This document shows positions 3,396-56,338 of a stretch of DNA of 64,000 bases, piece after piece. Source of the stretch: an uncultured Acidobacteriia bacterium (GTDB lineage Bacteria; Acidobacteriota; Terriglobia; Bryobacterales; Bryobacteraceae); the NCBI GenBank assembly GCA_903851195.1, contig CAINNJ010000010.1:62001-126000 (forward strand), given 5' to 3'. Position 1 is the stretch's first letter. Each line of letters begins with the position of its first letter. Made by a program: the position numbers and the translations under genes. The notes below the pieces were generated by a model. That model was not told the DNA's origin, searched no databases, and saw nothing but the letters and a program-made list of their open reading frames with translations.

Positions 3396-5105
3396 ATGAC
3401 AGCAACAGCAGGTTCCGGTTACATTGCCATTTCCCGCAGAGCTCTCGATCTCGAGGATTACATCGACGTTGCCCGGCGCCACGTCGGCTGGATTGTCGGC
3501 CCCCTTTACGCCGGCCTGGTGCTTTCGATAGCGATCGCTTTTCTGTTGCCCAATGTGTATAAATCGGAAGCGGTTATTCAGATTACACCGGCGCAGATTT
3601 CCGAAGATCTGGTCAAAAACACCGGCAATCAACTCCTGACCGACCGCATCATTCAGATGGAAGGCGCGATTCTGAGCCGCACCAGTCTTTCCAATCTGAT
3701 TCAGTCTCCCGACCTCAACCTGTATCCCTCCGATCGCGCCAAGCTGCCCATCGAAGACGTGATCGAAGTCATGAAGGCCAAAGATCTCCGCATCGACATT
3801 ACCTCGGCGGCGGCGGCCTCGCCGGGTAAACACGTGTCGGCCTTCAAAATCAGCTTTCAGTACCAGAACCGCTTCAAAGCGCAGCAGACCGTACAGAAGC
3901 TGATCACCCGCTTCATCGACGAAAATCAGAATTCCCAGCGCACGCAGCAGACTCTTCTCCATGACTTTTTCGGAGACGAACTGGCGCAGGCAAAAGCCAA
4001 TCTCGACAAGTGCAACGAGGAACTGACCAAGTTCCGGACGGAAAATCAGGGCCGCCTTCCGGAGCAGAGTCAGATGAACCTGCAGACACTGTCTTCCCTG
4101 CAGACGCAGGTCAACGGAATCAACGATCAGCTGAATCGTCTCGCGCAGGACAGAATCCAGCTGGAAGCGCATCTTTCCACGCTGAAAAGCCAGCTCGATC
4201 TCACCGCCCTGATGGCGCAGGAGCCGGATACTCTGCTTCCCAGCAGCCCGATGGCCCGCCAGAACTCCGAACTCGAAAATCTGAACCGGCAAATCGAAGC
4301 CGGCGATACCAAACTGTCTCAGTTGCTGCAGTCCTATAAAGACACCTATCCGGATGTGAAAGAACTGCGGAAGAGCCTTCTGGTTCTGAAAAAACAGCGG
4401 GACGCTCTCCAGCTCAAACAGGAGCGCGAGCAGGCCGACGAAAGCGCGAAACCGAAAGACGCGCCGAAGAAGACGACGAACTACCGCATCGCACAGTCCC
4501 AGACCTCCCTGCAGGGCGACATCGACCGGACCAACGCGTTGCTCAAGAGCAACGACTCCGATCGTCTCTACAAGCTCAAAGAGCAGGAAAAGATCAACAA
4601 ACAGATCGACGATTACCGGGCGAAACTGGCCGCGACTTCCGGAATTGAAGCGAGGTCGGTCGATCTGCTCCGGGATCAGGCGAACGCAACGGAAAAATAC
4701 CAGTCGATGCTGAAAAAGCAGGAACTGACGGCGCAGAACGGCGATCTGATTCAGCGCAAAGCGGGCGAAACGCTGGATGTGCTCGATCCCGCGTCTCTGC
4801 CCACCACACCCGCGAGCCCGAACCGGTTCCTGATTGTGGGCGCGGGACTCGCGCTTTCCCTCATTGTCGGAGTCGCCATGGCGGGCGTCCATGAAGCGAA
4901 GGACGCGTCGCTGAAGAATCTGAAGGACGTACGGGCTTACACAAATCTGCCGGTCCTCTGCAGCATTCCGCTGCTGGAGAACACTCTGTTGGTGAAGCGC
5001 ACGAAGCGAATCACTTATCTCGCCTGGTCGGCGGCGGTGATTGTCGGCATCATCGCTGTGTGCGCGGCGCTTTTTTACTACTACTCGTACACCATCAACC
5101 AATGA
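3396..5105 (+). CDS. Polysaccharide chain-length/co-polymerase protein, Wzz/GumC-like
   Basis: Inner-membrane polysaccharide co-polymerase that sets chain length and partners the export channel and the tyrosine kinase. An N-terminal cytoplasmic stretch (ALDLEDYIDVARRHVG) leads to a first membrane segment (about 32-52), a Wzz domain, long coiled-coil helices (about 185-450, rich in Gln, Leu and Lys), then the proline motif LDPASLPTTPASPNRF before the second membrane segment (about 478-500). A short cytoplasmic loop and a third hydrophobic segment near the C-terminus (about 539-565, ending FYYYSYTINQ) follow; the third segment is extra compared with the usual two-segment Wzz layout but is seen in some GumC-type proteins. 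At 569 residues it fits the long PCP-2a/GumC class. The gene ends 43 bases before the kinase start. Confidence 0.88.
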   Translation: MTATAGSGYIAISRRALDLEDYIDVARRHVGWIVGPLYAGLVLSIAIAFLLPNVYKSEAVIQITPAQISEDLVKNTGNQLLTDRIIQMEGAILSRTSLSNLIQSPDLNLYPSDRAKLPIEDVIEVMKAKDLRIDITSAAAASPGKHVSAFKISFQYQNRFKAQQTVQKLITRFIDENQNSQRTQQTLLHDFFGDELAQAKANLDKCNEELTKFRTENQGRLPEQSQMNLQTLSSLQTQVNGINDQLNRLAQDRIQLEAHLSTLKSQLDLTALMAQEPDTLLPSSPMARQNSELENLNRQIEAGDTKLSQLLQSYKDTYPDVKELRKSLLVLKKQRDALQLKQEREQADESAKPKDAPKKTTNYRIAQSQTSLQGDIDRTNALLKSNDSDRLYKLKEQEKINKQIDDYRAKLAATSGIEARSVDLLRDQANATEKYQSMLKKQELTAQNGDLIQRKAGETLDVLDPASLPTTPASPNRFLIVGAGLALSLIVGVAMAGVHEAKDASLKNLKDVRAYTNLPVLCSIPLLENTLLVKRTKRITYLAWSAAVIVGIIAVCAALFYYYSYTINQ

Positions 5106-5148
5106 TCACGGCCGGCAAACTGTTCCACCTGAAAAAGAACCCTACCTC

Positions 5149-6114
5149 ATGAGCCGAGTGCACGATGCCCTTCGACGGGCTGAACAAATGCTGGAAGCTC
5201 CCCCGTCCGAGGAGAATCCCGAATCCGCGGAGCGACTGGCGGAGGAATCGCATCCTCTGGTGGTTTCCGAGGAGAGTCCGCTTTCCGAACCGGAAGAACC
5301 GTATGGAATGCCGTACCTTTCGGGCCAGCCGAGCGGTCTGATCCGGTCGGAATCCAAGGGCATTCAGGTGGACTGGAGAAATTTTCTCTCCAAATGCCGG
5401 GTCATTCCCTTTCATCCGGCCCCGGAAGCCCACCTGATCGATATCGAGCGGCCGCACGAAGTGCCGGGCGAAGAATTCCGCAGCCTTCGTACCCGTCTGA
5501 ACCACATGCAGAGTCAGCAGGATCTGCACTCCATCGTGGTGACCAGCGCGTCGCCCGCCGAGGGCAAAACCTTCAGCGCCATCAACCTCGCTCTCGCTCA
5601 GGCGCAGCTCGAATTGCCCGTCCTGATCGCCGATCTCGACCTTCGGCGCCCGGTGGTTCACAACATGTTCCAGTGCGAAAAGTCGCCGGGCTTTTCCGAT
5701 TTTCTGTTGGCCGAAAAGCCGCTCGAGGAGTGCGTCCGCCGGATTGAAGGCACGAACCTCTACTTCATGCCGGCCGGCACGCAGGTGAAAAACCCGCTCG
5801 AACTGCTGAACATGCGGCAGGTGAAATACACCATCGACGCGTTCCGCAAGGTTTTCAACTGGGTGATTCTGGATACGCCTCCGCTGCTCTTCTCCGCGGA
5901 CGCCAACCTTCTGGCCACGCTGACCGATGGCACGCTGATCGTTGTCCGCATCGGCTCCACCACCTACGACAACGTGATCCGGGCCATGCAGTCGCTCTGC
6001 GAAAACAACGTCCTCGGCATTATCGCCAACGGCGCCCGCGCCGGCGAGCTCTACAGCAAGTACACGTATTACTACACTAAGGCTGAAGGTAATCCAGGCG
6101 GCGAAGAGGCGTAA
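5149..6114 (+). CDS. CpsD/CapB-type tyrosine autokinase
   Basis: Cytoplasmic BY-kinase that works with the co-polymerase encoded just upstream; phosphorylation cycling of its C-terminal tyrosines controls polymer assembly in known systems. The start at 5149 gives MSRVHDALRRAEQ, the usual beginning of this family; an upstream in-frame start at 5041 would overlap the previous gene. In the 321-residue product, the Walker A motif is ASPAEGKT (134-141), Walker A' is VLIADLDLRRP (158-168) and Walker B is WVILDTPP (238-245). The C-terminus has a tyrosine cluster (Y302, Y305, Y307-309), the expected autophosphorylation tail. Walker A carries Thr then Phe where most relatives have Ser-Thr, a small deviation. 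The stop codon lies in the loop of a hairpin (6101-6124). Confidence 0.9.
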   Translation: MSRVHDALRRAEQMLEAPPSEENPESAERLAEESHPLVVSEESPLSEPEEPYGMPYLSGQPSGLIRSESKGIQVDWRNFLSKCRVIPFHPAPEAHLIDIERPHEVPGEEFRSLRTRLNHMQSQQDLHSIVVTSASPAEGKTFSAINLALAQAQLELPVLIADLDLRRPVVHNMFQCEKSPGFSDFLLAEKPLEECVRRIEGTNLYFMPAGTQVKNPLELLNMRQVKYTIDAFRKVFNWVILDTPPLLFSADANLLATLTDGTLIVVRIGSTTYDNVIRAMQSLCENNVLGIIANGARAGELYSKYTYYYTKAEGNPGGEEA

Positions 6115-44023: not shown

Positions 44024-44758
44024 ATGGGTGTACTCGACGGAACCACGGCGCTGATTACCGGAGGCTCTCGCGGCATCGGACGCGCCATCTGCCTTCGTCT
44101 GGCGAAGTACGGCGCCGCGATTATCCTGCACTACCACCGGAACCGCGAAGCCGCCGAAGAGACCGCTGCCCTGATCGATGGCCCGGTGACCCTCGTCCAG
44201 GCCGATCTCGCCTCCGCCGCCGAAATCGAGGCCCTCTTCCAGTCCCTCGCCGGACGCCGTCTCGATCTCCTGATCAACAACGCCGGCGTCTGGAAAGGCT
44301 CGCCTGTCGGCTCGTCGCCCGTGGAACTGATCGACGAGCTTCTCGCCACGAACCTGAAAGGCCCGTTCCTCGTCACGCAGGCCGCCTTGCCGCTGCTGAA
44401 CGACGGTGCCCGGATCGTCAACATCTCCTCGGTCGCCGGCCGGACGGGCGTGGCCGGCGGACGCAGCCTCTACGGGGCAACGAAAGCCGCCATGGACTCG
44501 CTGACCCGCAACTGGGCGCTCGAACTCGCCCCGCGCCGCATCCTCGTCAACGCCGTCGCGCCCGGCTACATCACCACCGACATGACCGCCGCCTACCTGG
44601 CCGACCCCGCCAATCTCGAACGCGCCCTCATCCGCCACCCTCTCGGCCGTCTCGGCACGCCGGAAGACATCGCGGACGTTGTCGCGTTCCTCTGCTCGCC
44701 CGACGCCCGCTTCATCACCGGCCAAAGCCTCAACGTGAGCGGCGGATTTGTGATTTAA
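44024..44758 (+). CDS. SDR-family oxidoreductase, FabG-like
   Basis: A 244-residue canonical short-chain dehydrogenase/reductase. The motifs are present in order: TGGSRGIGRA for NAD(P) binding, NNAG in DLLINNAGV, the catalytic serine in NISSVAG, Y and K in SLYGATKAA (YxxxK intact), and the C-terminal [11 protein letters not shown]. The FabG-like N-terminus (MGVLDGTTALITGGS) suggests a 3-oxoacyl-ACP or polyol reductase, but the substrate cannot be set. It is divergent from the photolyase and its last four bases overlap the convergent DUF1080 gene. Confidence 0.9.
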   Translation: MGVLDGTTALITGGSRGIGRAICLRLAKYGAAIILHYHRNREAAEETAALIDGPVTLVQADLASAAEIEALFQSLAGRRLDLLINNAGVWKGSPVGSSPVELIDELLATNLKGPFLVTQAALPLLNDGARIVNISSVAGRTGVAGGRSLYGATKAAMDSLTRNWALELAPRRILVNAVAPGYITTDMTAAYLADPANLERALIRHPLGRLGTPEDIADVVAFLCSPDARFITGQSLNVSGGFVI

Positions 44759-46155
44759 TTCAGCTTCTTTACCAGAATATTGCGCACGGAAACCTTCGTG
44801 GTCGCCTCGATTTCGATCCCGAACAGCCCGGACTGATTGTTCGACGACGCCGGATCGTCGTCCACCATCACCGCCATCAGCTGTCCGTTAACAATATGCA
44901 TGCACGTCCCGCCCCGCGCGATCACCGTGTACTCGTTCCAGTCGTTCATGCGCACCACGCTGTTCAGCGCCTGCCGGTCGCCGATATTCCCCATCAGCTG
45001 TTTCCGCGCCAGCCCCGCGCCTTCCACCACCTGACCGCGCCACGCCAGGATCCGCATCGGCGTATTCTCCGAATAAAACTGCCCCGTCCAGTCCCGCGAA
45101 CTCGGCCAGAAATCCGCCTGCGGACCCGTCATCATCCAGTTCAGATTCACCGGTCCCACGTTCGCCGTCACGTTGTCCGCGATATTCGCGAGCCACGGCA
45201 GCCCGGTCTTGCTGCGGTACTGAAATCCGCTGCCGCCGCTGCCTTCCACCTTGATCTCGAATTTCAGCGTGAAATCCTTCGCCTCCATATCGCGATACAC
45301 GATATAGCTGTTTCCGCTGGGATTCTGCGGCGTCGATTCGCCGACAATCGCATGATCCTCCACGCGCCAGAACTTCGGATTGCCGTCCCAACCCTTCAGA
45401 CTCACGCCGTCGAAGATCGGCACGAAGCCCTCGCGATCGGCGAACTGCATCGGGTCCGGCTGCGTGAACCCGATTCCCGCGAAACTCCCGCCCATTTCGA
45501 GAAATCTCTCCACCTGATTTCGCGCCAATTTCAAAGAAGACGCCTGGATTTTCGCGAATGCCGCCGCCCGCGTTTTCGCCACCGCCAGTTCCGCCGCCGC
45601 CACGGCATCCGCCTTCGCGCGCAACGCCGACGGATCCGGCGATTCCGTCAGTGCCGCCGCGCCCAGCGCCGTCCGCGCGCTCGCCACGTTTTTCGTCAAC
45701 GGCATCACGTCCGTCGTCAGCCGGGTGAGCGCCGTCACCTGCGCCTCCGTGATGTTTGGAATGGAACCGTGCGCCAGCGCCGCGCCGCGTCCCCCGCCGC
45801 CAGCGGACGCCGCCAGCGCCGCCACCTGATTCGCGGCCAGTTTCCCGGGCGAAGCCTGCAATTTGGCGAACGCTTCCGCCCGAGCCTGCGCCAGCGCCAG
45901 TTCCGCTGCCCGCAAAGACTCCGCTTTCGCCGACAAATCCCGCGCATTTCCCGGCTCCGCGAACGCCGCCGCGATCATCGCCGTCCGCGCCGCGCCGGCA
46001 GCCTCCAGCGGTTTCGCGAGCTCGGCATTCGTTCGACCCAGCGCCGCCGTCTGCGCTTCCGTCGCGCCCGGCACTCCACCCCGGCCCGGACCCTGTCCAT
46101 AAACGCCGGCGATGCAAAGGGCCGCGGCCAACAGGCCACCACGAAAATGTCTCAT
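44755..46155 (-). CDS. Exported DUF1080 (3-keto-disaccharide hydrolase-like) protein with duplicated helical module
   Basis: A 466-residue exported protein. The chosen ATG at 46155 starts a signal peptide ([21 protein letters not shown]) with AAGAG about seven bases upstream. Residues 32-114 and 136-218 are two copies of one 83-residue helical module, each beginning TEAQ and ending in [20 protein letters not shown], joined by a Gly-rich linker. The TEAQ-type start recalls Spy/CpxP-like periplasmic sensors. Residues 230-466 form a DUF1080 domain ([36 protein letters not shown]) of the type that degrades 3-keto sugars in relatives. Role here is unknown. Its first bases lie 120 bases from the sulfatase-TPR end, and it could be the last gene of that operon. 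Confidence 0.82.
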
Positions 46156-46275
46156 CCTGAGTCTCTTCCTTCTCCGGTTCGTTACTGCGGCCACTTGCCA
46201 CCCCACCTTCGAACTAAGCTGGTCCGCGGGATCCGACGCCCCCAAACATCGAAGGCTCATTCGAGATCAAGGCTA

Positions 46276-47904
46276 TCATCGAATCGCGCTCCGCACGCGT
46301 TCCAGAGCCTCTTTCGCCTGCACCGCTTCGGGCGCCAGCCGGACCGCCGCTTCGAACTGATCCGCCGCCTCCCGCAGCCGCCCCGCCTGCTCGGTCGCGA
46401 TACCCAGTTCGAAGCGCGTCACGTAATCGTCCGGCGCCGCCGCCGCCACCCGCTGCAGTTCCGGAATCGCCTTCGCGAAATCTTTCCGCTCGATCAGCGC
46501 CACCCCCAGATCCCGCCGCGCCAGCAAATTCCCCGGATCCGCCCCCAGAATGCCGCGCAGCTTCACGATCGCCGCCTCCGGACGCTTCCGTGACAGCAGG
46601 TCCACCGCCTCTTCATAATCGAGCAGCAACGGCAGCCGGTCTTTCGGATCCGCCGAAGCCTGCTTCCCCACGCCTCGCGGACCCGGCGCCAGATACCCCA
46701 AAGACTCCAGCACCTCTTTCTTCCGCTGCGGATCGCCCGTGTTCGCCGCAGCACTCACCGGAGCAGTCGCCGGAGCCGCCGAAAACTTCGCCAGTTGCGC
46801 CCGCATCGTAGCCGCCTGGGCCGCATTCGCCGTCACCAGATTCCGGCGTTCCCCTGGGTCTTTCGACAGATCGTACAGTTCCGGCTTCGGCGCATCGATG
46901 AACTTCCAGCCGCCGGACCGCAGACTGCGCAGCGCCGCCCACCCGAAGCTGTCCCGCGCGTAAACGCTCTCCGAAAACACCACCCGCGCCGACCCGTCCA
47001 GCACGCTCTTTCCCTGAAAGCTCGCTGGCGCCGGAATCTTCAAAAAATCGAGGACGCTCGGCGCGATTTCCACCAGCCCCACCGGCTGCTCCACCCGCGC
47101 CGGAAGCTTTGCGGCGCCCTGCGGCCAGTGCACGATCAGCGGCACATGCAGTGTGCTCTCGTAGATGAAATACCCGTGGTCGGATTCGCCGTGATCCCCC
47201 AGCCCCTCGCCGTGATCCGACGTCAGCACCACCAGCGACCGGTCCCACCACCCCGCCTTCCGCAGCGTCTCCTGAAACGCCCCCAGCAGTTGATCGACAG
47301 CCCCCACCTGCGCGTCGTACGAGCCCAGCGTATACGGCTTATGCACATCGAACAGATGAATAAACACGAACACCGGCTGATTCGGATGCGCGACGAGCCA
47401 CTGATTCGCCGCCCGCAGCACCAGCGCCCCGGGCCGCCGTTCCCGCGCCGAATAGCTGTTGCCGTTCCCGCCCGACAACATCTCCCCGGAGAGCCGCGAA
47501 AACGCGCCGAACCGGAACGGACTGTCGTAAGTATCGAACCCGCGATCGAGCCCCAGTTCCCGCTCCAGAAAAATACTGCCGATGAACGCCGCCGTCTGAT
47601 AGCCGCGCGCCTTCAACACGGACGCCAGCGTCACCGCGCTCTTCGGTACGCTCCCCGCGTTTTCTTCCACGTGATTCGCATACGGATACGTGGACGTGAA
47701 AAGCACCGTGTGGGAAGGCAGCGTGAGCGGGATCTGCGACTCCGCCGCCGTGAATAGCGTCCCGCCCTGCGCCGCCCAGCTCATCAGATGCGGCGCTCGC
47801 CGCGTGTCCACATGATCGGCACGCAGCGTGTCCACCGAGATCACGAATACCGGCGTCTGCGCAGCACAAAACGCCGCCCCCGCGAAGAAGAGAGCGAGTC
47901 TCAC
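46276..47904 (-). CDS. Sulfatase/alkaline-phosphatase superfamily protein with threonine nucleophile and C-terminal TPR
   Basis: A 542-residue exported protein. A signal peptide (MRLALFFAGAAFCAAQ) leads into a sulfatase-type domain (about 18-400). Metal ligands are D25 (SVDTLRADH) and the pair in LTSDHGEGLGDHGESDHG. The nucleophile position reads T61-L-P-S-H instead of the CxPSR or SxPSR of formylglycine sulfatases, so the protein probably uses threonine directly, as phosphoethanolamine transferases and alkaline-phosphatase relatives do. TPR units cover about 425-540 (NLLARRDLGVALIERKDFAKAIPEL). Substrate is unknown. Its start overlaps the redoxin gene by four bases. Confidence 0.86.
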   Translation of the reverse strand: MRLALFFAGAAFCAAQTPVFVISVDTLRADHVDTRRAPHLMSWAAQGGTLFTAAESQIPLTLPSHTVLFTSTYPYANHVEENAGSVPKSAVTLASVLKARGYQTAAFIGSIFLERELGLDRGFDTYDSPFRFGAFSRLSGEMLSGGNGNSYSARERRPGALVLRAANQWLVAHPNQPVFVFIHLFDVHKPYTLGSYDAQVGAVDQLLGAFQETLRKAGWWDRSLVVLTSDHGEGLGDHGESDHGYFIYESTLHVPLIVHWPQGAAKLPARVEQPVGLVEIAPSVLDFLKIPAPASFQGKSVLDGSARVVFSESVYARDSFGWAALRSLRSGGWKFIDAPKPELYDLSKDPGERRNLVTANAAQAATMRAQLAKFSAAPATAPVSAAANTGDPQRKKEVLESLGYLAPGPRGVGKQASADPKDRLPLLLDYEEAVDLLSRKRPEAAIVKLRGILGADPGNLLARRDLGVALIERKDFAKAIPELQRVAAAAPDDYVTRFELGIATEQAGRLREAADQFEAAVRLAPEAVQAKEALERVRSAIR

Positions 47905-48473
47905 TGCTTCTTGAACGCGGAAAGATCGGGGATATAGCAGCCCACCGACGGCACTTCCGGCTTCGCGACAGGCCGCCCGCTCAGCACGGCGTCCAGCGAA
48001 TCCCGCAGATCGCGCTCCGTCACCACGCGCCGCGGCTTCCCCAGACGGGCGTAAAAATTGTCGATGCGCCCGCGATACGCAATCGACTCATCGTCCCGGA
48101 TCACCACTGCCTGCGGCGTGATCGTCGCGCCCGCCGCCGCCACCAGCGCATGCGTGCGATCCACGATCTTCGGATACGCGCCGTGCCCGTAATCCGCCGC
48201 GTGCTTCCGCGCCTCGGCATCGGACAGCGTGGGGTCCGTGTAGACCAGCGCGCAACTCACGCCCCGCGAGCCGAACTCATCGCAGATGCGCCGGATCTCA
48301 TGCGAGTAATAATTGGAAATCGGGCAGTCCTGCGTCACGAAAAACAACGCCTGGATGTGCCCCTTTTCCACCTGCAGCGGACGCCGCTCCACGCCCTCCA
48401 CATCCGGCACCTGGATACCCGGATGCGCGATCCGCGAAAGAGCCGCCAGCGCGAGCGTAAGGAACCAGATCAT
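47901..48473 (-). CDS. Exported redoxin (AhpC/TSA or thioredoxin-like) protein
   Basis: A 190-residue thioredoxin-fold protein with an N-terminal hydrophobic leader (MIWFLTLALAALSRIA), so it is probably periplasmic. LFFVTQDCPISNYY contains the single redox cysteine C50, and the cis-proline region is TITPQAVVI. Only one active-site cysteine is present, in contrast to the CxxC of TlpA-type redoxins. C179 (VGCYIPD) might be a resolving cysteine. Both ends overlap neighbours by four bases, placing it between the copper monooxygenase and the sulfatase-TPR protein in a coupled operon. It may protect or supply electrons to the monooxygenase (inference). Confidence 0.85.
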   Translation of the reverse strand: MIWFLTLALAALSRIAHPGIQVPDVEGVERRPLQVEKGHIQALFFVTQDCPISNYYSHEIRRICDEFGSRGVSCALVYTDPTLSDAEARKHAADYGHGAYPKIVDRTHALVAAAGATITPQAVVIRDDESIAYRGRIDNFYARLGKPRRVVTERDLRDSLDAVLSGRPVAKPEVPSVGCYIPDLSAFKKQ

Positions 48474-49816
48474 TGCGCGAGCAGCGCCTGCACCTTCGCT
48501 GCCATCGACGGATCTTTCATGATCCGCTCACGTGCCCTGTCGGTCGTGTGCTTCCGGTAATCGCGCCGAACCGTGTTCAGATCCGCCTCCTCATGGGGCA
48601 CCGCAATCAGGGTCAGGCTCCCCATTTCATCCTTCGACTGCTCGCCCCACGCCACCGGAATCGGCGGACTCGACGGATTTCGCGGATTTCCCGCCGAATT
48701 ATCCCAATGAATTTCGGCCTCGAGTTTCGTCCCCTTCGGCAGCGACACGAAATCCTGGAAGAAATACCGGTCCTGCCACGCGAAATCCCAGTCCGTGATG
48801 TGCAGCAGCGTTTTCGTCTCGCCGGAAGGCAACGTCGCCGTCATCTGCATGACCTTGCCGATATAGTGCGCATGAGCCGAGATGCCGACCGCATCCACGG
48901 CCGCGGGCAGCGTATACGAATCCCGGATCACGAAATCCTTCTCGCCCGCCGGAATGTCCAGGCCGGAGAACAGGGAATACACCGGCGGCAACTGAATCGC
49001 CGTGAGTGTCCGCTTCGGGGCTTCCTTCGCGAAATACAGCCCGATCAGGGACTTCTCCGCCTCCGCCTTGCCGTCCGGATGGAAGTGATACTGAATTACC
49101 AGGTCGGAGCCTTTGGTCACGCTCATCGCCAGGCCTTCCGGAAAGAAATGCGGTTGCGCGCCCAGCGCCCAACCACCCAGCGGAACCGACGCGCCGCCCG
49201 CCCGCATGCCCGCGAATCCCGGTTCCGTGCCTTCCTGCTGCCGCTCGTGAACCTTCCCCACCGGATCCGCAAAGTACAGAACGTGGTGCACCACCGCCCG
49301 CGCCGTGAGCCGCATGTCGATCGCTGTGACCCACTTGTCTTCCGTCAGGCCGAGCGGAATCGCGATATTCCGGTAAATATCCGCTCCGTCCGCCGGAATA
49401 TGATAAGCGGCCGGCATCTCGACCACCAGATCCGGTTCGCCCAGCCGCCAGCCCGACTTGAACTCCGGCGGCGCGGTCTTATCGGCAGGCGAGCCTTCCG
49501 GCATCCCCGCCTTCACCCACTCCTGCAACAGCGCGATCTCGCTGTCCGTCAGCCGCCGCTCGTCGCGGTACGGAAAGGAAGCCGGCACCGCCTTCCACGG
49601 CGGCATCTGCCGGCTCGCCGTCACCGCAGCGATCAGCTTCGCTTTCTTCGCAACGTCCTGATAGGAGAGCAGCGAAAACGGCGCCGCCTCGCCTGGCCGG
49701 TGGCAGGACGAGCAGTTCTGGTAAATGATGGGAGCGATCTGTTTATTGAAACTCACCCGCTGTGCGCCGAGCACGCCCGGCAGACACACCAACGCCAACA
49801 CCAACCGAAGTTGCAT
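48470..49816 (-). CDS. Cytochrome c-fused copper type II ascorbate-dependent monooxygenase-like protein
   Basis: A 448-residue exported protein. The ATG at 49816 starts a signal peptide (MQLRLVLALVCLPGVLGAQ). A haem motif C35-SSC-H39 forms a short cytochrome c domain with the MPPWK loop typical of such proteins. The C-terminal two-thirds resemble the copper monooxygenase domains of PHM/DBM: H177-H178 in AVVHHVLYF, H244xH246 in IQYHFHPDG and H315xH317 in ISAHAHYIG with nearby methionines are candidate copper ligands. Haem could feed electrons to copper within one chain in place of ascorbate (inference). The substrate is unknown. The stop overlaps the redoxin start by four bases, and the outer-membrane barrel gene ends 23 bases before its start codon. 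Confidence 0.88.
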   Translation of the reverse strand: MQLRLVLALVCLPGVLGAQRVSFNKQIAPIIYQNCSSCHRPGEAAPFSLLSYQDVAKKAKLIAAVTASRQMPPWKAVPASFPYRDERRLTDSEIALLQEWVKAGMPEGSPADKTAPPEFKSGWRLGEPDLVVEMPAAYHIPADGADIYRNIAIPLGLTEDKWVTAIDMRLTARAVVHHVLYFADPVGKVHERQQEGTEPGFAGMRAGGASVPLGGWALGAQPHFFPEGLAMSVTKGSDLVIQYHFHPDGKAEAEKSLIGLYFAKEAPKRTLTAIQLPPVYSLFSGLDIPAGEKDFVIRDSYTLPAAVDAVGISAHAHYIGKVMQMTATLPSGETKTLLHITDWDFAWQDRYFFQDFVSLPKGTKLEAEIHWDNSAGNPRNPSSPPIPVAWGEQSKDEMGSLTLIAVPHEEADLNTVRRDYRKHTTDRARERIMKDPSMAAKVQALLAQ

Positions 49817-49839
49817 ATTTGTCTTTAGAATAACGTCGC

Positions 49840-51639
49840 TCAGAATACGAAAGCGAGTCCGCCCCGCAGGCTGCGTGGCGCGTTCACCAGCAGTAACTGT
49901 CGGCCGCCCGGCATATTCACCGGCAGATAGCCCTGCGCGAGCAGGTTCCGCATCTCCGCTGACGCCTCGATGCGCCACGGCACGCCTGGAATGGAAGGAA
50001 TTTGCTGGCGAACCATGAAGTTCAGCCCCGGCCCCGGCCGCGTCGATTGCGTCAGGAACTGCGGGCCCGGCAGCGCCGACGAGTAATCCGCCCACTGGTA
50101 GCTGGCCACGAATCTTGAACCGGTTTCCTTCACCGTTCCGGATGCCCGCAGCGTCACGGCCGGGCGCTGCTGCGATTCCATGAACTGCCGCAGATCGTCC
50201 GCGCTCGACACCGCCGGACCACCCGTTCGGACCGCCATGACGCCGACCGTGCCGTAGGTCGCCGTCAGCTTGTAATTCTCGCCCAGATCTTGGGTCACCG
50301 AAGCCGTGTACCCGGTCGTTTCGAATCGCCCGGCGTTGAACAGCGCGCTGCCCGAGAACAGATCCGGCAGCAGGTCGCCCGGAAACAGACTCCCGTCGGG
50401 ATGCGCGATCGTCAGCGTATTGTTGCTGACGCTCTCGTTATAGACCGAAACCCGGTACTCACGGGATCCGAACTTCTCCGTGACACCCACTTCATAATCG
50501 TCGCCGCGCTGCAGGCGTGTCCGTCCATTGTCGAGCGTGACCCGGGGGATGAGCGAAAGCGCCGTCACTTCGCGCTGCAGATCCGCATTCTGATCCGAGG
50601 CGTTCAGTCCCAGTTCCGGCCGCGCATTGCCGGATGTGTACGTGACATCGAGGAATCCGCGCGGCAGCGCATAGGTCAGCCGCGCATAAGGACTGAAATA
50701 ATGAAGCCGTTCGAGGAACGAGACCATGTCGATCTGCGCTCCGTACTCCACGCTGAGCGAATCGCTGAGCTGTGTCTTGTCCGCCAGACTCACCGCGATC
50801 GAGCGAATTGCGGGCAGGGAACCGTCGGCTCCGCTGGCGCTTCCGGTCACCCCATGAAACGGCAGGAAAATCTGCCGCATCGTCACCGAAACCGCGGGGC
50901 TGGCACTGCCGATATCTCGCTGAAAAGTCGTCCGAATGGCCGCCGTGGGCGATCCCGACGCCGTTCCATACCCCACGTTGCCGCTGAACTTGAGATGCGT
51001 CCCGCCGTAGACCGAAGTCGCAAACGCGAACTGCGTACCCAGATCCGCTTCACCGATGCTGCCTGCCGTCTCCCCGCCGTCGCTGGCGGAAATCCGTACC
51101 AGACCGCGCGAGTCGCTGAATAAAGACGCCCGTTCCAGACTCCCGGCCGCCCGCGCTCGCTGCGAGTTCAGTTCCGGCAGCATGCGCAGAATCGGACGCA
51201 GTGCCGAATCGGCCCGCAACGTCCACTTCCAGTCGTCGCTCATCAATCCGGAAGGCGTGGGCGACGTCGCGACCAGCTGAATCGAACTGAAAACGCGGGA
51301 AAGATTGACCTCGAGCAGGCTCCGCATCCCTGGCCGGACTGCGACAAATTCTTTAACAGCGGGAACGAAACTGGCGAAGCTGACTCGGACGGAATACAGA
51401 TCGGGAAGAAGATCGTCGAACGTGAAGTTGCCGGCAAAATCGGTGCCGGACCGCTGCAGCACCTTGTCCTGCTTGTTGTACAACATGACGATGGCGCCCA
51501 CTTGTGGACGCCCCGCCGAATCGGTCACCAGGCCGCTGAGTTGTCCCGCGATCCGAACGGGTCCGCCAGCGAGCAGAGGGGACACGGGCAGCAGCGCCGT
51601 GGTCACCAGACCGACGATCATCGCCTTCGCGCCTCGCAT
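49840..51639 (-). CDS. Outer-membrane beta-barrel with carboxypeptidase-regulatory domain, no plug
   Basis: A 599-residue outer-membrane protein and apparent first gene of the monooxygenase operon. A signal peptide (about 1-24, ending LLAGG) is followed by a carboxypeptidase-regulatory-like domain (about 30-115: LSGLVTDSAGRPQVGAIVML, GNFTFDDLLPDLYSVRV). The barrel of alternating beta strands runs to the terminus SLRGGLAFVF with the C-terminal aromatic. Unlike the receptor at 16341, I see no TonB plug domain with a LIDG-type motif, and it is about half as long. It might be a porin-like exporter or adhesion scaffold, or a receptor partner for the monooxygenase substrate. The gene ends 23 bases before the monooxygenase ATG. 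Confidence 0.8.
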   Translation of the reverse strand: MRGAKAMIVGLVTTALLPVSPLLAGGPVRIAGQLSGLVTDSAGRPQVGAIVMLYNKQDKVLQRSGTDFAGNFTFDDLLPDLYSVRVSFASFVPAVKEFVAVRPGMRSLLEVNLSRVFSSIQLVATSPTPSGLMSDDWKWTLRADSALRPILRMLPELNSQRARAAGSLERASLFSDSRGLVRISASDGGETAGSIGEADLGTQFAFATSVYGGTHLKFSGNVGYGTASGSPTAAIRTTFQRDIGSASPAVSVTMRQIFLPFHGVTGSASGADGSLPAIRSIAVSLADKTQLSDSLSVEYGAQIDMVSFLERLHYFSPYARLTYALPRGFLDVTYTSGNARPELGLNASDQNADLQREVTALSLIPRVTLDNGRTRLQRGDDYEVGVTEKFGSREYRVSVYNESVSNNTLTIAHPDGSLFPGDLLPDLFSGSALFNAGRFETTGYTASVTQDLGENYKLTATYGTVGVMAVRTGGPAVSSADDLRQFMESQQRPAVTLRASGTVKETGSRFVASYQWADYSSALPGPQFLTQSTRPGPGLNFMVRQQIPSIPGVPWRIEASAEMRNLLAQGYLPVNMPGGRQLLLVNAPRSLRGGLAFVF

Positions 51640-51691: not shown

Positions 51692-53371
51692 CTAGTTTAC
51701 CGTAAAGTTGGTCTGCTGCTGCAGCGTCTGATTGCCCTTCTTATCGGTCGCTTTCACCTTGAGGGTGTACGCGCCGGGCGCCATGGCTTTCAGCGGCAGC
51801 AGTTTTTCAATGGTGACCTGGTTGGCCGAAGCGTTCGGAATCTTCGACAAATCTTCCGTAAAGTTCAGCACCGGCTCCGGCGTGCCTACCTTATTAATCT
51901 CGTAGGTGATCTCCCCGCTGGGCTTCTGCGTCTTCTCGTCCGGAGCGAAATTGTAGACCTGCAGATAGATCCCCATCTTTTCGTCGCGGTTGAACTTGTC
52001 GCCCAGCCGCGGCCGCACTTTCGTGTCGCCGATGGAGAACATCCCGCCGCCAATGCTTTTGGTCGGCAGCTTTTCAATCGTATCGGCCAGAATCAGGCTG
52101 CTCGACGCCAGTTTCTCTTCGTCGAAGTGCGGAACGTCCAGCGCCACTTCGTAGTTGTTCACGTTGCCGCCGACAATGTCCTTCGCCACGATGTTCAGGC
52201 GATACCGGCTCGGCGCCAGCGGAATCGACTGCTGATAAATCGAGCGCTGCGCCGTCAGTTTCTGCAGCATCTCCGGCGCGATGGTGATTTCGAGCGGCTT
52301 TTCGAACGTCGTCACCGGCCGGCGCGTCATCGTCGTCACGCGGCCGAACAGGTTAATGACGGATTTCTGCACGCCGTCTTTCTGCTGGAACTGCAGGTCC
52401 TTGTTCTCGAACTGCACCGTGACGTTCGCCAGCACGGACGATTCGGTCACGCGCACATAATCCACGCGAACCAGCATCGGCAGCACGTTGAACGTAATGC
52501 GCGTATTGACCAGCGCTTCCAGATCTTTGAACTTGACCGGCGGCGCTTTCTGCAATTTAGCGAACTGTTCGAGACGCGTGAACTCATCCATACTGGCCGG
52601 CGTTCCGCCCAGCGGCGTGCCGAGGTGCGTGCCGTCGGTGCGCTGGAAGCGGGCGGTCTTGGTGCTGAGACCCATCTGTTCGGACAGCGTCAGACCGGCG
52701 TTCGGAACATAAAGAAGGGCGTCTTTTTCCGACGGATCCATCGTCATGCGGTACTCGCCCGTCATCGTCGGATCGACGAACTCGATATTCACGTCGTTGC
52801 CGATGCCTTCGATATACCGGTAACGCCAGTCTTCGAACGGATACGTCGAGGTTTCACCGCCGCCTTCCGCCGAGGGGCGCTGATAGCTGCCGCCCGAGGG
52901 ATGCGAATCGATTTCATCGGGCGGCCCGAAAGTAATATAGATACGGCCGCGGTCGCTCTTCCAGCCCGGAATACCGGACGCGTAATGCTCGTTGGCATAC
53001 GCAATCCGGCGGTAATGCTCTTCTTTATACTCGTTTTCCACCGTGTCCGGCGTCGGGTCGCGGCGCAGCCAGAACTGCTCCACGAACTGCTCGCGCTCTT
53101 CGTCGGTGGCGAACTGCTTGAAGGCTTTGCGCTCTTCTTCCGTGATGATGTACGAGACGTCCTCGTTCAGCCACTTCTTCCACGGTGTCTCGAGTTCTTT
53201 CTTGAGACGCGCTTCCTTCTGTTTGCGCTGCTTATCGGTCAGCGGCTTCGCCACGGTTTCCCGGGGAGCCGCCGCCGCGGACTTCTTTTTTGAGTCCTGG
53301 GCAATGGAGGGCGCTACAGCAAGAAGGAGAGTCAGGCCAAGCGACGAGACCCAAAGACCCTTTGTACTCAT
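51692..53371 (-). CDS. GWxTD domain protein, exported
   Basis: A 559-residue exported protein of the GWxTD family. A signal peptide (MSTKGLWVSSLGLTLLLAVAPSIAQ) and a Lys/Ala/Pro-rich linker are followed by LETPWKKWLNEDVSYIITEEERKAF, where WLNEDV corresponds to the family's namesake region (about residues 62-85), and by FVEQFWLRRDPTPDTVENEYKEEHYRRIAYANEHYASG, located at about 95-132. GWKSDRGRIYITFGPPDEID and the repeated beta-sandwich domains up to residue 559 are typical. The family is frequent in Acidobacteriota and Bacteroidota and has no established biochemical role. The gene is separated by 72 bases from the small membrane protein upstream. Confidence 0.88.
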   Translation of the reverse strand: MSTKGLWVSSLGLTLLLAVAPSIAQDSKKKSAAAAPRETVAKPLTDKQRKQKEARLKKELETPWKKWLNEDVSYIITEEERKAFKQFATDEEREQFVEQFWLRRDPTPDTVENEYKEEHYRRIAYANEHYASGIPGWKSDRGRIYITFGPPDEIDSHPSGGSYQRPSAEGGGETSTYPFEDWRYRYIEGIGNDVNIEFVDPTMTGEYRMTMDPSEKDALLYVPNAGLTLSEQMGLSTKTARFQRTDGTHLGTPLGGTPASMDEFTRLEQFAKLQKAPPVKFKDLEALVNTRITFNVLPMLVRVDYVRVTESSVLANVTVQFENKDLQFQQKDGVQKSVINLFGRVTTMTRRPVTTFEKPLEITIAPEMLQKLTAQRSIYQQSIPLAPSRYRLNIVAKDIVGGNVNNYEVALDVPHFDEEKLASSSLILADTIEKLPTKSIGGGMFSIGDTKVRPRLGDKFNRDEKMGIYLQVYNFAPDEKTQKPSGEITYEINKVGTPEPVLNFTEDLSKIPNASANQVTIEKLLPLKAMAPGAYTLKVKATDKKGNQTLQQQTNFTVN

Positions 53372-53443: not shown

Positions 53444-53896
53444 TCAGGCCGCCTTTCCCCGCGCGAGCGGAGCCGGAGCGGACCGCACCAGCCACGCGGC
53501 AACCCCCGCGCAAACCGTGATCAGCGCCGAAAAAGCCACCGGAGCGGCGAAAAAATAAACCCGGCTGAGCACCAGACAAGCCAGTTGCACCGCGAAGAAA
53601 CTCCAGCCCAGACCCCCGATCGCTTCCGGCGCCCGCCGCGCCATTCCCGCCAGATGCCAGGCCACCAGCGCCGCGAACAGCAGATAGGCGCTCACAAACA
53701 GGCCGAAACCGGCGTAGAAGCCGTAGAAAGTAAAGTTGCCGCCGTTGGCGGAGAATCGGACGGTATGCATCGCATCCAGCACCGCCCGCGATTCCACGGT
53801 CGGCGGCGCGAAGGTCAGAAATCCCATGGTGTGACCCGCGGCGAAAAGAACCAGAAGCACGGCGGCGATTCGATAAAGATTACTTGCGTAAGTCAT
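53444..53896 (-). CDS. Small four-helix membrane protein (LIC_13387-like)
   Basis: A 150-residue membrane protein with four hydrophobic segments (about 8-28, 55-80, 92-112, 117-138). The first starts YRIAAVLLVLFAAGHTMGFLTFAPP, and FYGFYAGFGLFVSAYLLF follows a polar loop; this matches the uncharacterised LIC_13387 family. Function is unknown. Its ATG lies inside one of two matching inverted repeats (53888-53920), which indicates tight regulation at the gene start. It precedes the arsS-like gene on the same strand direction but is read away from it, with ArsS ending 37 bases upstream. Confidence 0.72.
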   Translation of the reverse strand: MTYASNLYRIAAVLLVLFAAGHTMGFLTFAPPTVESRAVLDAMHTVRFSANGGNFTFYGFYAGFGLFVSAYLLFAALVAWHLAGMARRAPEAIGGLGWSFFAVQLACLVLSRVYFFAAPVAFSALITVCAGVAAWLVRSAPAPLARGKAA

Positions 53897-53933: not shown

Positions 53934-54902
53934 TCAACTGGTTTCCAGAGCCCCGCCGCAACTCGACCCCGCCCCCGCCGTGCACCCGAAACAATGCGCC
54001 GCCGTCGCGATCCCCTCACCGGTCAGGCCGCTGAAATCCTGAAAATCCCACACCGTGCGCCTGCGCCCGCCCAGCCCGATCTCCAGCATCTGATTGAAAT
54101 CGCAATCGTAGAGCGTCCCGTCCCAGCCCACGCTGACCAGGCTCCGGCACATCAGCCCCGGCACGGTCGCAGGATTGAAGTGCTCATCGAGCAGCTTCAT
54201 GTAACCCGGCAGTTTGCCGCTCCGCTCCAGGTCGGAACGGAACCGGCTGATCGGCATATTGGTAATCGTGAACAGCCGGTTGAACTCGATGCCGAACCCG
54301 TCCCGCAGTTGCCTCTTGTAATCCGCCTCCAGCCTCCCCTGTTCCGGAGGCAGCGATCCGCCCAGCGGATTGTAGACCAGATTCAGTTCGAGCGACGACC
54401 CCGCCTTCCCGTACCCGAGCGCATTCAGTTCCCGCAACGCCCGGATGCTCTTGTCGAACACCCCGCGTCCGCGCTGCGCATCCACATTGTCCGCCGTGTA
54501 ACAAGGCAGACTCGCCACCACCTGCACCCGATGCGCCGCCAGAAACTCGCCCAGGTCCTCACACCCGCGCTCGAACAGCACCGTCAGATTGCACCGGTCG
54601 ATCACCGCCCGCCCCAGTTCCCGCGACCGCCCCACCAGCCGCCGAAAATTCGGATTCAGTTCCGGCGCCCCGCCCGTAATATCCACCTGCATAATCGAAG
54701 GCGTCGCCTCCAGCAACTCCAGCAGCCGCTCCGCCACCGCCTCCGTCATGATCTCCGTGCGCTTCGGACCCGCGTCCACGTGGCAATGGAGACAAGCCTG
54801 ATTGCACAGCTTGCCGACGTTGATCTGCAGCGTCGCAGTCGCCCCGCGACGCAGCGGCTCCAATCCGTGCCGCAGCAGCGCGGCCTCAAAGTCGAAACTC
54901 AT
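53934..54902 (-). CDS. arsS: Arsenosugar-biosynthesis-type radical SAM protein
   Basis: A 322-residue radical SAM protein of the ArsS group. The triad is C33, C37 and C40 (LCNQACLHCHVDAGPKR). ITGGAPELNPNFRRLV and SLELNLVYNPLGGSLPPEQ are family signatures. The C-terminal SPASM-like region has LMCRSLVSVGWDGTLYDCDFNQM and CFGCTAGAGSSCGG, giving auxiliary cluster cysteines. ArsS enzymes transfer an adenosyl group to methylated arsenic during arsenosugar synthesis in cyanobacteria and other bacteria; no arsM methyltransferase is in the window, so I infer rather than prove the pathway. The start overlaps the MerA-like gene by four bases. Confidence 0.88.
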   Translation of the reverse strand: MSFDFEAALLRHGLEPLRRGATATLQINVGKLCNQACLHCHVDAGPKRTEIMTEAVAERLLELLEATPSIMQVDITGGAPELNPNFRRLVGRSRELGRAVIDRCNLTVLFERGCEDLGEFLAAHRVQVVASLPCYTADNVDAQRGRGVFDKSIRALRELNALGYGKAGSSLELNLVYNPLGGSLPPEQGRLEADYKRQLRDGFGIEFNRLFTITNMPISRFRSDLERSGKLPGYMKLLDEHFNPATVPGLMCRSLVSVGWDGTLYDCDFNQMLEIGLGGRRRTVWDFQDFSGLTGEGIATAAHCFGCTAGAGSSCGGALETS

Positions 54903-56338
54903 AACGCGGCCGACCCCTTCCTGGTCCCGCGATACCGCAGCACTTTCCCCAGCAGCCCGAGCAGCGGCGAATCCAGTTGGCGCGCGCCGAACTGATCCGC
55001 CACTCGCCGGTTCCCCAGCGTAAACGTTGGGTAGGGATGAACCGTATCCGAAATATTCTGCATGCGGATATGATTCCGCATCGCCAGCGCATAGTGCGAA
55101 ATCATCTCGCCGGCCTGCGCCCCCACGATCGACGCCCCCAGAATCCGACCCGCCGGATCCCCAAAGACTTTAATCTCCCCCGCCGTCTCGCCTTCCGTGA
55201 TCGCCCGGTCGAGACGGTCGAAAGGCAGCCGAAATACCCCATACTTCGCCCCGCGCCGCCGCAAGTCCTCTTCCGACTCGCCCAGCGTCGCCAGCTCCGG
55301 GTCCGTAAACGTGCACCAGACCACATGCTTCTCATCGAGACTCTTCGGCCACCGCAACAGCGCGTTCGTCACCGCGACTTTGGCCATATGCTCGGCCATA
55401 TGCGTGAACTGGTGCCTCCCGGTCACATCCCCGGCGGCATAAATGTGCCGCTGCGAAGTCCGGCAGCGCGTGTCGATCCCGACCCCCTTCTCGCCAACCC
55501 GCACGCCCGCCTTCTCCAGTTGCAGCCCGTCAACGGAGGGCCGCCGCCCGGTGGCCGCCAGCACCGCATCGCACGCCAGCACCTCGCCGTTATCCAGCCG
55601 CGCCTTGCCTTGTTCCACCCCGGTCACCCGGCGCCCGAAACGAAACTTCACGCCTTCCCGGGCAAGACAGTCCCGCAAAATGGCGGCATGCGCCGGATCG
55701 TCCCGCCGCAAAATCCCCTCTCCCGGCGCGACCACCACCACTTCCGACCCCAGACGCCGGAACGCCTGCGCCATCTCGATCCCCACCGGACCCGCTCCCA
55801 GCACCAGCAGCCGCCGCGGCCGTTCCGTCAGCTCGAACAAACTCTCGTTCGTGAGCGCAGGCTCCGCAAATTCGGGCTTCTTCGGCCGGCTGCCCGTCGC
55901 AATCACAAAGAACCGCGAGCGCAACCGACGCGTCCCGCTCCCGTCCGTCACTTCCACCGTGTGCGGATCCAGGAACCGCGCGCTCCCCGGCACCACCTCC
56001 ACGCCCAGCCGTTCCATGTTCGGCGGCGCATCTGCCTCTTCATAGACATGCTGCCGGACACTCCGCACGTGCTCCATCACCCGGGCGAAAACGATCTCCG
56101 GCTCGGTCGACGCCAGTCCGAACCGATCCGCGGTACGGATCTGCTGCGCCGCCCGCGCCGCTCCCAACAGCGCCTTACTCGGGATACACCCCGTCCACGT
56201 GCATTCGCCACCCAGCCGGCCCCGCTCGATCAGCGCCGTCTTCGCCCCTAAAAGGGCGGACATCCCGGCGCTCGTCAGCCCCGCCGCGCCCCCTCCGATC
56301 ACCACCATGTCGTATTCCAGTCGCATCATGTCGGACAA
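54899..56338 (-). CDS. FAD-dependent pyridine nucleotide-disulfide oxidoreductase, MerA-like
   Basis: A 479-residue flavoprotein. The FAD-binding GGGAAG (15-20), the redox-active disulfide C46-TWTG-C51 (GGECTWTGCIPSK), the NAD(P)-binding GAGPVGIE and the second FAD motif YAAGDVTG are present. The C-terminal interface reads VHPYPTFTLGNRR with the conserved histidine, and there are no vicinal C-terminal cysteines, so mercury reduction is unlikely. Such proteins are often next to ArsS genes. The longest start is a TTG at 56338, with ATG alternatives at 56329 and 56326; no ribosome site is clear. The divergent glycosyltransferase gene starts nine bases away. Confidence 0.87.
   Translation of the reverse strand: MSDMMRLEYDMVVIGGGAAGLTSAGMSALLGAKTALIERGRLGGECTWTGCIPSKALLGAARAAQQIRTADRFGLASTEPEIVFARVMEHVRSVRQHVYEEADAPPNMERLGVEVVPGSARFLDPHTVEVTDGSGTRRLRSRFFVIATGSRPKKPEFAEPALTNESLFELTERPRRLLVLGAGPVGIEMAQAFRRLGSEVVVVAPGEGILRRDDPAHAAILRDCLAREGVKFRFGRRVTGVEQGKARLDNGEVLACDAVLAATGRRPSVDGLQLEKAGVRVGEKGVGIDTRCRTSQRHIYAAGDVTGRHQFTHMAEHMAKVAVTNALLRWPKSLDEKHVVWCTFTDPELATLGESEEDLRRRGAKYGVFRLPFDRLDRAITEGETAGEIKVFGDPAGRILGASIVGAQAGEMISHYALAMRNHIRMQNISDTVHPYPTFTLGNRRVADQFGARQLDSPLLGLLGKVLRYRGTRKGSAAL

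Follow-up and report, generated by a model that had tools for sequence, protein, structure and literature searches.

Do four closely packed genes on one strand encode the parts of a single oxidation system, or has an enzyme with one partner come to lie among genes that serve other tasks? The question is raised by a locus in a 64,000-nucleotide stretch of DNA (the window) from an uncultured Acidobacteriia bacterium of the order Bryobacterales. In this locus, a gene for a putative copper monooxygenase with a haem domain of its own (mox) is preceded by a gene for an outer-membrane barrel and followed by genes for a thioredoxin-fold protein (redoxin) and a sulfatase-like protein with TPR repeats. 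A first-pass annotation of the window read the four products as a small periplasmic system, in which the barrel and the sulfatase-type enzyme take part in processing an exported substrate. We think it probable that the locus instead holds a module of two, a haem-wired mox with a PHM/DBH fold and its dedicated redoxin, and that the other genes are only neighbours. PHM (peptidylglycine alpha-hydroxylating monooxygenase) and DBH (dopamine beta-hydroxylase) are copper type II, ascorbate-dependent monooxygenases.

The mox chain combines a cytochrome with a predicted PHM/DBH fold

The fold of the mox product was analysed with an AlphaFold2 (AF2) model that had a predicted local distance difference test value (pLDDT) of 89 and a predicted template modelling score of 0.85. 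The model was superimposed on PHM with a VIA Z score of 20.5 and a root-mean-square deviation of 3.1 over 269 residues, and on DBH with a Z score of 19.6, whereas the next unrelated fold reached a Z score of 7.8. Foldseek gave values of 1.8e-13 to PHM and 3e-13 to DBH. PNGase F, viral capsids and other jelly rolls, which appeared in the Foldseek and VIA results at Z scores of about 8 or less, were set aside as sharing the common arrangement only. The dicopper domain of mox is thus predicted to have the PHM/DBH fold.

At the sequence level, the similarity was visible with a family profile. A single-sequence phmmer search with mox against the PDB returned nothing relevant, whereas the family profile A1 found rat PHM at an E value of 0.0016 and placed the VHH, LQVH and HTH motifs of PHM on conserved mox histidines. 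The window mox was not matched by Cu2_monoox_N or Cu2_monoox_C at the Pfam curated cut-off, which is a library cut-off and not a structural criterion; Cu2_monoox_C matched 8 of the 35 mox homologues (E <= 0.01). With the PHM/DBH family (PF01082/PF03712), mox shares the predicted two-jelly-roll fold, the histidine motifs and an invariant methionine in the right region. It differs by the fused c-type cytochrome and the redoxin partner, and the identity is about 18-19%.

The 35 homologues come from four phyla, and H177, H178, H244, H315, H317 and M398 were invariant in all of them. These six residues are likely candidates for the copper ligands. The histidines 177, 178, 244, 315 and 317 had been proposed in the first-pass annotation and are retained here because they are invariant and align with PHM. 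H246, proposed with them, was ruled out as a ligand since its column varies, with His in 29 of the 35 sequences and V, Q or G in the other six. The methionine had been overlooked, and M398 probably completes the ligand set as the sixth ligand. Column 313 aligns with R240 of PHM, which we take to be the anchor of the peptide carboxylate. It was never Arg in the 35 sequences (S, G, T, Y, F, A or V), so a peptidylglycine substrate is not expected. The CuM ligands of PHM are Met314, His242 and His244, and ascorbate supplies both coppers with one reducing equivalent each (PMC6123673).

For the haem domain, the window mox gave a weak Pfam cytochrome match below the cut-off, and Cytochrome_CBB3 matched 21 of the 35 homologues (E <= 0.01). 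The annotation of haem and dicopper monooxygenase domains in one exported chain therefore agrees with the Pfam matches in the homologues, the invariant motifs and the AF2 fold. It had also been suggested that the haem domain may replace ascorbate as the electron donor, which is plausible by analogy with the lytic polysaccharide monooxygenases (LPMOs). These are single-copper enzymes with a different fold. For copper monooxygenases of this other class, reduction and activation by a c-type cytochrome has a precedent in the donors of the Cellvibrio Cbp2D/X183 type (PMC8981238). The analogy is a functional one, with a cytochrome in place of ascorbate serving an exported bacterial copper monooxygenase; X183 sits on a separate protein, whereas the mox haem is in the same chain.

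Alternatively, the haem domain could be a sensor, a structural element or an electron outlet, and mox could still draw its electrons from a small molecule, for instance ascorbate or a quinol. We consider this quite unlikely, since the haem motifs were invariant in all 35 homologues, equal to the copper ligands, and a c-type haem with His/Met ligands is usually an electron carrier.

In the explanation that we favour, mox would be exported to the periplasm or the cell surface. Its N-terminal c-type cytochrome would take up electrons from periplasmic cytochromes or some other donor and hand them one at a time to CuH, O2 would be activated at CuM (H315, H317 and M398), and a C-H bond of some exported substrate would be hydroxylated. 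The haem domain would do the job that ascorbate does in the animal enzymes.

Redoxin is the recurring companion of mox

The recurring unit at these loci is mox together with redoxin. Counted over loci that share descent, and not as independent events, redoxin was found within 700 base pairs (bp) of mox in 28 of 43 database loci, two of them with redoxin on the other strand. The remaining 540 kb of these 43 loci contained zero redoxins, and redoxin was the commonest companion of mox. Of the 58 places in the order that hold a redoxin, 35 lie no more than 300 bp from a mox gene on the same strand, with redoxin first in 25 and mox first in 10. Among 40 further Acidobacteriota genomes outside the order, redoxin adjoined or was fused to mox in 16, in three of them in one frame.

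The fusions in one frame span three phyla: redoxin-mox-TPR in a Nannocystaceae locus (L051), a mox/redoxin fusion in Planctomycetales (L056), and three in Acidobacteriota (L220, with the order mox-TPR-redoxin, L238 and L240). Several phyla have the pair, its gene order runs either way, and the fusions differ in order too; a single ancestral arrangement does not explain this. The adjacency across phyla and the fusions also bear out the earlier proposal that redoxin is a partner of mox. The other neighbours of the pair vary elsewhere and include PQQ dehydrogenase, FG-GAP proteins and PSD-type cytochromes. At one locus (L223, genome G387 C44), three mox genes stand in tandem on the same strand, one with an adjoining redoxin. 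At another (L030, 11849-13324), a Cas10/Cmr2 palm-domain protein is encoded about 0.9 kb after the mox-redoxin pair.

The redoxin family was analysed in an alignment of 26 sequences (A2). It has no CxxC motif and keeps C50-P51 and G178-C179. A profile search of the PDB gave 2ywi and 3u5r as the closest solved structures, with ResA-type proteins further off. Homology places redoxin in the same fold as the 2ywi/3u5r group, whose C-terminal G-C-x-I motif it also has. In contrast to this group and to the ResA-type oxidoreductases, the mox-linked redoxins lack CxxC, of which only C50 is left, and have C179 in addition. Redoxin probably matures or protects mox. It would be an exported thioredoxin-fold partner with one N-terminal active-site cysteine and a C-terminal cysteine, and would most likely keep mox usable, either by thiol or copper-site maturation or by removing oxidants after uncoupled turnover.

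Instead of a thiol or copper maturation factor, redoxin could be a peroxidase that clears the H2O2 arising from substrate-free copper turnover. Pfam matches to Redoxin and AhpC/TSA that narrowly exceed the cut-off, the invariant C50-P51 and R136/R148, and the T-x-x-C spacing of the window redoxin would fit such an enzyme. A Thr or Ser three residues before the cysteine is typical of peroxiredoxins, but this position varies in alignment A2 (T, S, R, Q or G), and the PDB entries that the profile retrieved were of the thiol-disulfide type, for example ResA, and not peroxiredoxins. Although copper monooxygenases do leak H2O2, in amounts that depend on the donor (PMC8981238), we regard a peroxidase as unlikely.

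Several observations speak against a haem-wired mox with a dedicated redoxin. M398 was not aligned with M314 of PHM by sequence, the C-terminal profile having given no match. Many mox genes, including paralogues within one genome, have no adjacent redoxin, and four relatives have a redoxin but lack mox. Neither gene, then, depends strictly on having the other beside it.

The barrel belongs to an order-wide pair with a GWxTD protein

All but one of 120 genomes from the order (119) have the barrel gene (E <= 1e-30), always as a single copy, which in one genome is split in two. A GWxTD gene was located immediately upstream in 60 of 60 regions examined, 61 with the window. This gene, which the first-pass annotation did not mention, is the conserved partner of the barrel. 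Most barrel loci of the order have no mox nearby. Since the GWxTD-barrel pair is order-wide, it presumably has a role of its own and is not an accessory of mox.

The model of the barrel protein (pLDDT 80.6, with low values at residues 126-168) showed a carboxypeptidase-regulatory-like domain and a barrel that starts near residue 172; a C-terminal aromatic signature was also present. The best VIA rows were OprD-type porins (Z score 16.8), and the model showed no plug of the kind that TonB-dependent transporters carry inside their 22-stranded barrel. Such transporters led the Foldseek results, but with a template modelling score of about 0.3, so we do not claim a transporter family for the barrel. 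In family f3 (L179, L182 and L186-L189), the barrel gene is followed by genes for a small carboxypeptidase-regulatory-like protein and a LigT-type phosphoesterase.

The sulfatase-like protein lacks the sulfatase signature

The sulfatase-like protein has a sulfatase-family domain overall and shares a conserved DHGEGLGDHGE stretch with the type I sulfatases and the Thr-nucleophile enzymes of the alkaline phosphatase superfamily. It differs by a C-terminal TPR region and by the active-site motif, where T61-L-P-S/A-H65 replaces C/S-x-P-x-R; T61, P63 and H65 were invariant in five homologues, and the window protein reads T61-L-P-S-H65. Formylglycine is therefore not expected. Because C/S-x-P-x-R is missing, the protein is better named a Thr-type member of the alkaline phosphatase superfamily, and sulfatase activity is unsupported. 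The gene follows redoxin only in some genomes of g1, the genus to which the window belongs, and is an optional passenger in this one genus.

Mox was probably joined to the barrel locus more than once and lost again

In genus g1, mox follows the barrel gene in most sampled members. In genus g17 (L183-L185), the barrel gene is followed by redoxin and then mox, the opposite order to g1, and in L158, from a third genus, mox is located upstream of GWxTD. We read the g1 and g17 arrangements as separate joinings to the GWxTD-barrel pair, at least two in number. Since several mox paralogues are present per genome, some adjacency to the pair is expected by chance. The two separate joinings together with L158 may hint at a preference, and mox may accordingly be loosely linked in function with the barrel.

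In four g1 genomes (L133, L135, L136 and L137), the barrel gene is followed immediately by redoxin with no mox between, and the sulfatase-like gene is often kept. In a GWxTD and barrel tree, in which some forks are weak, the mox-less g1 genomes were scattered among the mox-bearing ones. Repeated loss of mox is probably the simplest reading for the four, noting that the mox-less g1 genomes are mostly fragmented assemblies. In L137 (G085, about 4751-5374 with the barrel gene turned to the plus strand), the first part of the redoxin frame, a signal peptide and TFNGKIA, resembles that of mox and runs in frame into the mature redoxin. The sequence suggests that mox was deleted in frame and its export signal retained, and the signal peptide gives direct support for loss. 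No mox remnant was seen in L133, L135 and L136, and for these three we infer the loss.

The mox genes on four contigs labelled Verrucomicrobiota (L019, L021, L022 and L028) were 64-72% identical to the window mox and nested in the g1 clade, which suggests either horizontal transfer or mis-binned contigs.

These data bear on the reading of the locus as a dedicated four-gene system, in which barrel and sulfatase-type enzyme serve mox on one exported substrate. The tight spacing and the overlaps in the window argue for it, as do the GWxTD-barrel-mox-redoxin order in several g1 members, the separate redoxin-mox joining in g17 and the position of mox beside the pair in L158. Yet the barrel occurs almost throughout the order, mostly with no mox near, and the sulfatase-like gene is limited to part of one genus and lacks the active-site signature. 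Moreover, L133, L135, L136 and L137 keep barrel and redoxin, and often the sulfatase-like gene, without mox, and at other loci the genes around the mox-redoxin pair are quite different ones. A conserved order of the four families was looked for at 60 barrel loci and was not found. We conclude that a dedicated four-gene system is very unlikely. Rather, mox and redoxin would form a transferable module that in g1 was placed behind the order-wide GWxTD-barrel pair, with barrel, GWxTD and Thr-type protein as neighbours and not as dedicated parts.

Layout of the locus

The features are listed in Table 1. The genes were taken as real because homologues exist in many genomes. The spacing described earlier agrees with the coordinates: the barrel-mox gap is 23 bp, and mox and redoxin (48470-48473) as well as redoxin and the sulfatase-like gene (47901-47904) overlap by 4 bases. 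The hydrophobic N-termini seen by eye are in line with the export signals annotated on all four products. A promoter scan found 1 site against 1.5 expected from shuffles, which is no excess, and a terminator scan found 11 against 7.6 in shuffles.

Table 1. Genes and sequence features of the mox locus, in window coordinates
Feature	Position	Strand	Remarks
GWxTD-domain protein	51692-53371	(-)	52 bp upstream of barrel gene
Outer-membrane barrel, 599 amino acids	49840-51639	(-)	N-terminal carboxypeptidase-regulatory-like domain and barrel
mox (monooxygenase), 448 amino acids	48470-49816	(-)	start is ATG at 49816
mox domains (residues)			signal peptide; mono-haem c-type cytochrome about 20-110; predicted PHM/DBH-fold dicopper domain about 125-424; C-terminal helices
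mox CSSCH (C35, C38, H39)	49700..49714	(-)	haem-attachment motif; invariant in 35 homologues
mox M71 in MPPW motif	49604..49606	(-)	invariant in 35; probable second haem-iron ligand
mox H177-H178	49283..49288	(-)	aligned with PHM VHH (H107/H108, CuH site)
mox H244	49085..49087	(-)	aligned with PHM LQVH (H172, CuH site)
mox H315-x-H317	48866..48874	(-)	aligned with PHM HTH (H242/H244, CuM site)
mox M398	48623..48625	(-)	in invariant EM pair; probable CuM methionine (PHM M314); place fits structure ranges
Redoxin, 190 amino acids	47901-48473	(-)	thioredoxin fold by homology
Redoxin C50-P51	48321-48326	(-)	invariant
Redoxin G178-C179	47937-47942	(-)	invariant
Alkaline-phosphatase-superfamily hydrolase/transferase with TPR (sulfatase-like), 542 amino acids	46276-47904	(-)
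3-keto-disaccharide-hydrolase-like protein	44755-46260		15 bp downstream of TPR gene

The 3-keto-disaccharide-hydrolase-like gene had no counterpart in related loci by tblastn, and its product has two similar alanine-rich N-terminal repeats, seen by eye. Beyond the GWxTD gene, the window encodes an LIC_13387-family protein (53444-53896) and, at 53934-56338, an ArsS-type radical SAM protein (TIGR04167, above the cut-off) whose gene overlaps that of a mercuric-reductase-like flavoprotein by 4 bases.

Distribution and meaning of the mox family

The mox family was present in 66 of 297 sampled genomes of the phylum (E <= 1e-60), often in several copies each. No NCBIfam model matched it, and a full-text literature search, with subscription journals mostly outside its coverage, found no paper on it. 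Eukaryotes are the main known source of PHM/DBH enzymes, which have been studied with ascorbate as the donor (PMC6123673). Mox may represent a widespread, undescribed bacterial branch of this class that is self-wired, with its own c-type cytochrome and a dedicated CxxC-less redoxin in an exported module for ascorbate-free C-H hydroxylation. Such a branch would span Acidobacteriota, Myxococcota, Planctomycetota, Bacteroidota and Verrucomicrobiota, the last having mox without an adjacent redoxin on the same strand. We put the prospect of this larger claim slightly below even. If it is true, the path by which electrons enter the PHM/DBH class could be tested directly within a single chain, thanks to the built-in cytochrome of these bacterial enzymes, and redoxin might show how copper sites of this kind are put together or kept from damage.

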